Source of the DNA: Sphingobium phenoxybenzoativorans
GTDB taxonomy: Bacteria > Pseudomonadota > Alphaproteobacteria > Sphingomonadales > Sphingomonadaceae
Direction of reading: 5' to 3'
Length of the DNA stretch: 64,000 nt
NCBI RefSeq assembly: GCF_001757355.1
Contig: NZ_MINO01000001.1
Location: forward strand, 238,900 to 302,899
This document shows, in pieces, positions 13,136-25,792 of the stretch; position 1 is the stretch's first letter, and the number at the start of each line of letters is the position of its first letter. The notes under the pieces were generated by a model, which was not told the DNA's origin, made no database searches, and saw only the letters and a program-made list of their open reading frames with translations. Both the position numbers and the translations under genes were made by a program.

Positions 13136-13495
13136 CGTTCCGCCCTTTCGCCGAACAGCTTCCTTCCCGGATCGCAGCGACCAACCGCACAAGCCCGTTT
13201 TTCTGGAATTTTTCTCTCCCGTGGCGGACCGAAGTTGCGGAAGTTGCGGGTATCCATTGATCCCGCAACTTCGCGCAAACAGAACAGAGCTACGCCGGCT
13301 TCCCATTGCCCGATTGCGCAATTTTCCCTGCTTTATCGTGAACCGATGGGCCTTGGTCTGGTCTATGGTCATGGACGGACGGCTATCATATGCGGCCGTG
13401 TGTAGGACAGGCGACGACATCTGCCATAGCGCGCCCTTTCCACGACGAAATGCTGCATCTGCGAAACAAACCGGATCATATTGCGTTGGCCGGTC
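13136..13495. other. Gene-free gap with 22-bp repeat and hairpin
   Basis: This 360-base interval between recG and the MscS gene holds no convincing gene; short frames here have no recognisable features. It contains copy 1 of the dispersed 22-bp repeat (13230-13251). Overlapping its right end is a perfect 11-bp inverted repeat: GAAGTTGCGGG at 13240-13250 pairs with CCCGCAACTTC at 13262-13272 around an 11-base loop. The stretch AATTTTTCT lies at 13207-13215. The hairpin lacks a T run, so it is not a classic terminator. No clear promoter for the MscS gene was identified. Confidence 0.6.
13230..13251 (+). repeat. 22-bp dispersed repeat, copy 1
   Basis: The unit is C, then two tandem GAAGTTGCG blocks, then GGT. 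It is identical in all 22 bases to copies at 17389-17410 and 25572-25593, all in the same orientation and all in gene-free gaps. Here the second block also forms the left arm of a perfect 11-bp hairpin. Function unknown. Confidence 0.85.
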
Positions 13496-17340: not shown

Positions 17341-17388
17341 CGGGGCGGTGGTGGAGCCGGAATCCGCTCATTCATTCGGCAAATCCAA

Positions 17389-17410
17389 CGAAGTTGCGGA
17401 AGTTGCGGGT
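17389..17410 (+). repeat. 22-bp dispersed repeat, copy 2
   Basis: All 22 bases match the copies at 13230 and 25572 (C, two GAAGTTGCG blocks, GGT), same orientation. It lies between anmK and the 11-bp array, 33 bases before the first array unit. No accompanying inverted copy is seen here. Confidence 0.85.
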
Positions 17411-17443
17411 TCTGATGCGTTTTGACCGGATTTTGCCCGGAAA

Positions 17444-17663
17444 GTCGCATGTAGGTCTCACTAAAGTCCCATGTAGGTCGCATGTACGTCCCATATGCGT
17501 CCCACTTACGTCCCACTTACGTCCCATGTGCGTCTCACTTGCGTCTCATGTGCGTCGCACTTGAGTCTCATGTAAGTCCCGGTTGCGTCGCACTTACGTC
17601 GCATCTGCGTCGCGGTTGCGTCGCATGTTGGTCTCACCCGGGTCGCGGGTGAGTCACAGGTGC
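17444..17663 (+). repeat. Tandem array of 20 units of a degenerate 11-bp repeat
   Basis: Cutting the sequence at each GTC gives exactly 20 consecutive 11-base units with no insertion or deletion. The consensus is GTCSCAYKTRC. Columns 1-3 (GTC) and column 5 (C) are invariant in all 20 units, column 6 is A in 17 and column 9 is T in 18. Column 4 uses all four bases (G 8, C 6, T 5, A 1), and columns 7, 8, 10 and 11 also vary. Because 11 is not a multiple of 3, every reading frame cycles with an 11-residue period; on the minus strand this gives repeats such as RRKCDATGTYM. No spacers exist, so it is not CRISPR. I do not know this element. Confidence 0.9.
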
Positions 17664-17880
17664 GGCCCGGTTCGGCGCCGGGCAGGCGGTTTTGGTCAGC
17701 GGGTTTTGGATATTGTTCCATGCGGGGGAGTAGAGCATGGGGCGGGGGATGTAGGACAGGCGTTCAGGGCATCGATATGAGTGTGCGTTGCGACCTCAGA
17801 GAGTATGACGGCTAACGACCATTCATTGTCATTCCCAAGCTATTCCCCTTATGCCTCAAAGCGGTCGTAAATTCAGAGTC

Positions 17881-18222
17881 ATGGGGAGATTGAAGTTGGC
17901 TGCGCGAGAATTTGTCAGAGCATGCAAGGAAGAGCGAGATGCATTGCTCGCCATGTTCAGCGATGCATCCGCAGGCACGATTGTCGGGCAGCACCTCGAC
18001 GCAGCACAGTTGAACTCGGAACAGCGTCGTAATGTGATCGCCGCGCTCGACGCGGCTCTTACCGACACGTTCTACACTTTGTTGATGGGCCTTGCTGGCG
18101 AAGCCTCACTTGGAGGGCGGCAGCAGGCATATAGGCTGTCAGATGAAATGGGGCGGCCTATCTCGCCGTCTGAACATGCCGACCTTGGCGACCTCGCATT
18201 TGAGGCTTTTCAAGCCGATTGA
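17881..18222 (+). CDS. Small hypothetical protein
   Basis: A 113-residue acidic helical protein that I cannot assign. It reads as a real protein: balanced composition, with amphipathic segments around REFVRACKEERDALLAMF and NSEQRRNVIAALDAALTDTF, then a Gly/Leu-rich middle and an acidic tail. No signal peptide, membrane segment or catalytic motif is visible. ATG 17881 is preferred; the frame also allows ATG 17851 (ten residues longer). Base composition looks lower in G+C than the flanking housekeeping genes. It sits between the 11-bp array and the palindromic repeat pair, in a region that looks like an accessory insertion point. Confidence 0.6.
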   Translation: MGRLKLAAREFVRACKEERDALLAMFSDASAGTIVGQHLDAAQLNSEQRRNVIAALDAALTDTFYTLLMGLAGEASLGGRQQAYRLSDEMGRPISPSEHADLGDLAFEAFQAD

Positions 18223-18279
18223 ACGTCTGAGTTCGTAGTTAAAGGACTCACAGCAGACTGTCTCCTATCCACCCTTTTC

Positions 18280-18368
18280 CGTCATCCCCGCGAAAGCGGG
18301 GACCCAACACGCCTTGGGCACATAAGGCGTGGGAGGCGAGATGGGTTCCCGCTTTCGCGGGAATGACG
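18280..18368. repeat. Palindromic intergenic repeat element A
   Basis: The arms start CGTCATCCCCGCGAAAGCGG (from 18280) and end CCCGCTTTCGCGGGAATGACG (to 18368). Each arm is itself a smaller palindrome around GAAA/TTTC. The whole forms a long imperfect stem of the REP type often seen between genes in sphingomonads. It occupies the 3' side of the small hypothetical gene. Confidence 0.8.
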
Positions 18369-18401
18369 AGTCATGGAATAGATGAGGCAGCTAACCACCC
18401 C

Positions 18402-18502
18402 TTCGTCATCCCGCACGTGATGCGGGATCTATTGGCTCCATGCTGGCGTGACGGCACAAGCGCCAGCGCTCATGGATCCCGGATCAAGTCCGGGATGACG
18501 AA
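18402..18502. repeat. Palindromic intergenic repeat element B
   Basis: A second, related element. The outer arms TTCGTCATCCCG (18402-18413) and CGGGATGACGAA (18491-18502) are perfect inverted repeats. Each side holds its own hairpin (CCCGCA/TGCGGG near 18410-18426 and CCCGGA/TCCGGG near 18478-18494). It could act as a transcription attenuator between the converging hypothetical gene and the VWA gene. Confidence 0.8.
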
Positions 18503-18546
18503 ATCGGGGATATGTTAGCTTGCCACCCAAATTAGCTAACCACCCA

Positions 18547-25571: not shown

Positions 25572-25593
25572 CGAAGTTGCGGAAGTTGCGGGT
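25572..25593 (+). repeat. 22-bp dispersed repeat, copy 3
   Basis: Identical in 22 bases and orientation to the copies at 13230 and 17389. Like copy 1 it has AATTTTTCT a short distance upstream (10 bases here, 14 there). It sits roughly 260 bases from each flanking gene. Confidence 0.85.
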
Positions 25594-25792
25594 TGCAGCC
25601 GCGCTTCCAGGTCTGGGGCAGGGCTGGGGTCTTGGGTGGTTGCCAAAGCCCAAATTGCGCCGGCGGCGCAAAAGCGCGGCGGAGCGGCCATTTGCAGGGA
25701 TGCCAGCCATGGAGAATATCCTCTCGCCAATTGAGATTTGGCGGAGGTAACACCGGCTGGACGCAATAGGACAGGGCTATGAAAGGCTCAGC

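Follow-up and report, generated by a model that had tools for sequence, protein, structure and literature searches.

Three described systems come closest to the arrangement reported here. One is the phage terminase small subunit (TerS) with its repeated packaging sites. In ParR-parC plasmid centromeres, direct repeats cluster next to the operon that encodes a small DNA-binding protein, and ParR of plasmid R1 requires at least two 11-bp repeats (PMC9426499). REPIN-RAYT combines a gene with a population of dispersed gene-less elements (PMC3116915). Here we describe a dispersed Sphingobium element that carries an array of 11-bp direct repeats and whose full copies encode a predicted helix-turn-helix (HTH) protein.

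Within the window, that is, the whole 64,000-nucleotide stretch of Sphingobium phenoxybenzoativorans DNA that was analysed, the array divides exactly into 11-bp units (Table 1). Columns 1, 2, 3 and 5 read G, T, C and C in 20/20 units, column 6 is A in 17/20 and column 9 is T in 18/20; columns 4 and 8 use four bases each, and columns 7, 10 and 11 use three. A recount thus bore out the exact array with four invariant columns described by the sequence-only reading, and the pattern lies far above chance: its four-unit form matched 104 times in the window's genome, where the reversed control had no match, and was absent from the 60 other genomes searched. The three-unit form occurred in 1/396 genomes of the order, and the close relative G103 (Sphingobium MAG nzgw534) belongs to neither the 60-genome nor the 396-genome sample. 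Arrays of the GTCNCA version were found only in the window's genome and one close relative. A dyad reading of the repeat (TGNGTCNCA) was dropped because column 11 and column 4 of the next unit are not complementary (G then C in 3/305). The three-unit pattern was also met in 114 viral stretches; among the 80 listed, 77 had a single match and three had two matches 33 bp apart, and we took these as chance or coding repeats.

Table 1. Coordinates of the element, its parts and its sister copies in the window.
Feature	Position	Strand	Remarks
Whole element	17381..17759	-	Promoter-like motif, start codon, array, end motif, read 17759 to 17381; both ends common to other genome copies
End motif AAATCCAAC + GAAGTTGCGGAAGTTGCGGG	17381..17409	.	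Window's genome has 27 occurrences when up to 2 mismatches are allowed; exact in 2/94 genus genomes
11-bp array	17444..17663	.	20 x 11 bp; GTC.C.. on + strand, TGNGAC on promoter-motif strand
Remnant reading frame, start ATGGAACAA (MEQYP...)	17506..17721	-	Retained beginning of the lost HTH gene, running into array; not thought a working gene; start common with the complete genes in L070 and L082
Promoter-like two-box motif CTGTCCTACA...ATGCTCT	17732..17759	-	Second box departs from TGNTA consensus
Sister element without array	13231..13410	-	Interval between recG and mscS-type gene; ATG at same distance from promoter motif
Sister element without array	25573..25774	-	No ATG at the distance seen in the 13231 copy

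The array is part of an element spanning 17381-17759 and does not stand alone. The dispersed 22-bp repeat that had been noticed beside it is GAAGTTGCGGAAGTTGCGGG, which is present three times in the window (13231, 17390 and 25573) and which, in exact form, was counted 22 times in the window's genome and 11 times in G103. All 16 arrays of the window's genome, and all 8 of G103, begin 43-64 bp past this motif or a variant of it. An array is found in 16/27 element copies of the window's genome; the 11/27 copies that lack one include the two sister elements of the window. At their other end, the copies carry TGTAGGACAG or a near form, which on the other strand reads CTGTCCTACA, followed in many copies by TGNTA at a fixed distance. 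A 19-base form of the end motif matched 36 stretches in a collection of named genomes, the only genomes with more than one match being five Sphingomonadales MAGs (11, 6, 4, 3 and 2), and the remaining ten matches being singletons; extended by the next six positions, the end motif had 0 viral matches. The orientation of genes around the elements showed no clear preference by crude ORF calls. Adjoining the element, a 123-aa ORF at 17851-18222 has no Pfam match and no link to the array that we could see, and other interspersed palindromic repeats (..CGTCATCCCCGCGAAAGCGGGG..) lie at 18277-18510, between the element and a CoxE-like gene.

The two-box motif, searched as CTGTCCTACA-N12-TGNTA, was found in 50/94 genus genomes and its reversed control gave 0 matches; because the motif had been defined from copies in the searched genomes, the weight lies on the control rather than on the count by itself. 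In 6/30 fetched loci (L312 truncated), the motif lies directly upstream of a small HTH gene, and two of these six (L299 and L319) have at the far side the end motif common with gene-less copies. Together, these observations indicate that the element is read from its promoter-like end, which in the window means the minus strand. Behind the same promoter motif, L297, L301, L315, L299 and L319 carry larger HTH relatives (327-345 aa and 180-187 aa), which had no match among the Pfam models tried. In four other Sphingobium (L228, L238, L241 and L253), anmK is followed by a short, different element that has a TGTAGGACAG-like end.

A profile of the HTH proteins located a relative inside one array element of the window's genome, L070. 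Both this copy and its G103 ortholog, L082, have the order promoter motif, ATG GAA CAG CAC CCT..., ORF, 11-bp array and end motif, with an ORF of 104 aa in L070 and 110 aa in L082; a different repeat type is inserted in L082. The gene is kept in only 1/16 array copies of the window's genome, the second HTH match of that genome (C137) lying outside such an element. By sequence comparison, the window copy has the promoter-like motif, start codon, array and end motif without the gene body: it reads MEQYP and then departs, and is hence a gutted copy. More generally, an ATG lies 33-44 nt past the promoter motif in 21/21 array copies that have a promoter end, 12 of which read MEQ (three further array copies lack this end), and at that distance in 5/13 array-free copies; shared descent accounts for part of this retention. 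Comparison of the HTH gene between G000 and G103 gave a dN of 0.093 and a dS of 0.173, by which the gene is only weakly constrained between the two.

The pairing of gene and array extends across the genus. A profile built from 81 homologs matched 20/21 Sphingobium genomes of our own choosing, weakly in three (G002, G007 and G074). Past the stop codon, at least three in-phase GTCNC at 11-bp spacing were found in 16/28 gene loci (one on the opposite strand) and at least four in 10/28, against 0/247 control windows for at least three; the 28 are those of 30 fetched loci in which the ORF was found, L437 (where there is an in-frame stop) and L445 having been left out. Autocorrelation free of any motif, computed over the 150 bp past the stop codon, gave 0.462, 0.428 and 0.405 at lags 11, 22 and 33 and 0.228-0.305 at other lags, and control stretches gave 0.236 at lag 11 with no peak there; leaving out L443 and L444, which are weak family members without arrays, the periodicity exceeded z = 2 in 24/26 gene loci. 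The 11-bp register of the original description is kept. With L449 also left out and phases chosen by motif, the first unit starts a median of 9 nt past the stop codon (25 loci), and the commonest cores after genes are GTCGC (89/232) and GGCGC (55/232).

The GTCGC core, three in a row at 11-bp spacing, matched 32/94 genus genomes, 18 of them at least three times, and its reversed control matched once in each of nine; the 60 array places that we fetched are part of these matches. Across the order, it matched 28/396 genomes; since the reversed control matched once or twice in 37, we gave weight to repeated matches alone. Outside Sphingobium, repeated matches were confined to a second genus of the same family (g23; five genomes, 4 to 27 matches), in which comparable promoter-like and ATG features are readable. 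The correspondence is not exact in every genome: G002 has 8 GTCGC matches and weak gene matches, and G023, G083, G084 and G108 have the gene and lack the GTCGC pattern, their loci still being periodic at 11 bp. As the core on the promoter strand is TGNGAC in the clade of the window and GTCGC in other clades, the core or its orientation has changed. A period-11 scan at CoxE-like gene loci, extended to other Sphingobium, gave 107 in the window's genome, 80 in G103 and at most 32 elsewhere, with a shuffled maximum of 27.

Proteins of this family are currently labelled LysR, AraC-like, transposase-like, terminase small subunit or hypothetical. In PHROGs, each of the four family proteins searched came out as a terminase small subunit, with matches to phrog_4044 at 5.6e-6 (P0241), 1.5e-6 (P0181), 1.2e-7 (P0001) and 2.5e-8 (P0135). 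Pfam gave only weak HTH matches, and Terminase_2 came up only below cut-off, for P0129 and P0135. A structure model of a family protein is all-helical, with four helices in 104 aa. P0241 had no match in the plasmid collection.

We favour, at a probability of roughly 60%, the reading that the array belongs, as its DNA-array part, to an element dispersed in Sphingobium, that full copies of this element encode a predicted HTH protein resembling the DNA-binding end of TerS, and that the array is likely the binding platform of this protein, contacted once per 11-bp unit. On this sequence-based proposal, protein made from full-length copies would bind the arrays cooperatively, with about one protomer per helical turn, both beside its own gene and at gene-less copies; binding may control the element's own unit, and the gene-less copies may serve as decoys or fixed chromosomal marks. 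The sequence-only reading had offered a phased protein-binding array, a structural element and a source of variable peptides. A predicted binding array is the best supported of the three: in most of the gene-bearing copies that we examined, an array of this kind comes immediately after a gene for a predicted DNA-binding protein. Peptides do not fit, since stops interrupt the frames and the HTH gene terminates ahead of the array; a coding repeat was likewise rejected for its stops and frame shifts. A bolder extension, which we regard as possible but doubtful, is that sphingomonads have a new class of gene-array system on their chromosomes. In it, a stand-alone terminase-type DNA-binding domain would coat the 11-bp arrays next to its own gene, and the gene-less copies would spread the same arrays around the chromosome as permanent marks, with a centromere-like or packaging-like role in organising or selecting DNA.

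The dispersal of the element could also be explained if these were miniature mobile DNA, with gene-less copies as non-autonomous relatives, the enzyme encoded elsewhere and the array serving as its recognition site with no role for the host. Dispersed gene-less copies do have both ends common with gene-bearing ones, the site between recG and mscS holds an element in the window's genome and none that we recognised in G103, and in L060 the end GTAGGACAT is the inverse of its CTGTCCTAC end. However, 9/11 G103 elements have flanks matching those of elements in the window's genome, so any movement must be slow or old. Inverted TCCTAC/GTAGGA ends are present in few copies only, and neither a clean empty site nor a target duplication was obtained. 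A search with transposase models found no transposase domain in the element-encoded proteins, although a distant transposase could be encoded elsewhere. Gene-less copies, too, show conservation of the array core. We regard the mobile-DNA reading as rather unlikely. At one site (L055/L101) an array is present in the window's genome and none in G103; this difference in element type, with the different short element behind anmK in the four other Sphingobium, hints at gene conversion or repeated use of sites.

A small RNA gene, with a transcript running from the motif at 17759 across the array and acting by base-pairing or as a protein sponge, would account for the genus-wide two-box promoter-like motif. 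It would also suit the GCTCTTT found within 100 nt past that motif in 11/30 places (L296-L325, other Sphingobium), compared with 2/1336 background windows. We take this sequence to resemble boxA, and it may mark antiterminated transcripts; its reverse complement was seen in Sphingomonas MAG copies. The folding of the arrays nevertheless makes an RNA gene improbable: the 17 arrays fold no better than column-keeping shuffles (mean z about 0) or unit shuffles, which counts against the structural element of the earlier reading when taken as RNA. Selected RNA structure had been a candidate from single-array z values of -2.5 and -4.2, and these disappeared under column and unit shuffles. Nor was there an Rfam match for the element; only tRNA reached the gathering threshold, with sub-threshold microRNA models near the array.

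The sequence-only reading had proposed constraint on the core, and had held constraint to be unlikely if relatives showed random indels and mutations across all columns. Relatives gave a mixed answer. Units are gained and lost, mostly as whole 11-bp units; the anmK site has 13 units in G103 against 20 in the window's genome. When six ortholog array pairs were aligned by unit, L049/L091 lay far above unit shuffles, L051/L103 slightly above, and four did not. In L049/L091, the one clean pair on which the test of core conservation rests, identity is 68/70 in the core, 72/84 in the variable columns and 121/148 in the upstream flank (Fisher p 0.02 and 0.001), which supports the proposed constraint. 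Over the 61 aligned units of all six pairs, columns 1, 2, 3 and 5 differ in 4/244, column 6 in 8/61 and the rest in 18-41%. Ortholog pairs of other Sphingobium also have a nearly unchanged core, a conservation biased by the fact that their loci were gathered by the GTCGC core, and their other columns can differ more than the flanks. L371/L391, L371/L422, L391/L419 and others are such cases. This excess suggests exchange of units and not point mutation alone. A functionless slippage minisatellite is very improbable: the units do lie head to tail and vary in number between orthologs, but neighbouring units are less alike (0.370) than units within an array on average (0.423, against 0.420 between arrays), across the genus the HTH gene is repeatedly followed by DNA of this period, and changes avoid the core. 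A spurious 3-unit run, L058, is counted in the 332-unit set and was left out of the unit-similarity and folding analyses.

If the binding-platform reading is true, a family of variously labelled small proteins would be tied to a DNA target that travels with the gene and is also seeded genome-wide without it, and the role of the protein would be directly testable. It would also mean that a phage-type packaging domain has been put to use on bacterial chromosomes, and that an intergenic minisatellite with the look of noise can serve as the target in a gene-target pair.

We found no description of this element in the open-access literature, with subscription journals largely outside the scope of the search. 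The encoded protein resembles TerS in matching the TerS family phrog_4044. It differs in consisting of the DNA-binding region only (about 104 aa), in being chromosomal with no match in the phage collection (P0135), and in that its gene precedes a long 11-bp array with dispersed gene-less copies. Direct repeats lie beside the element gene as they do beside the ParR-parC operon; in contrast, ParR is a ribbon-helix-helix protein, whereas the element protein is predicted to be helix-turn-helix with an all-helical model, and the element arrays occur on genome-assembly contigs at many places, mostly without the gene. REPINs, for their part, are inverted REP doublets tied to a tyrosine transposase, whereas the body of the element is an 11-bp direct array, and the search with transposase models found no HUH/Y1 transposase among its proteins. 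As the two sources describe them, each of ParR-parC and REPIN-RAYT has one half of this design in common with the element and is missing the other half.
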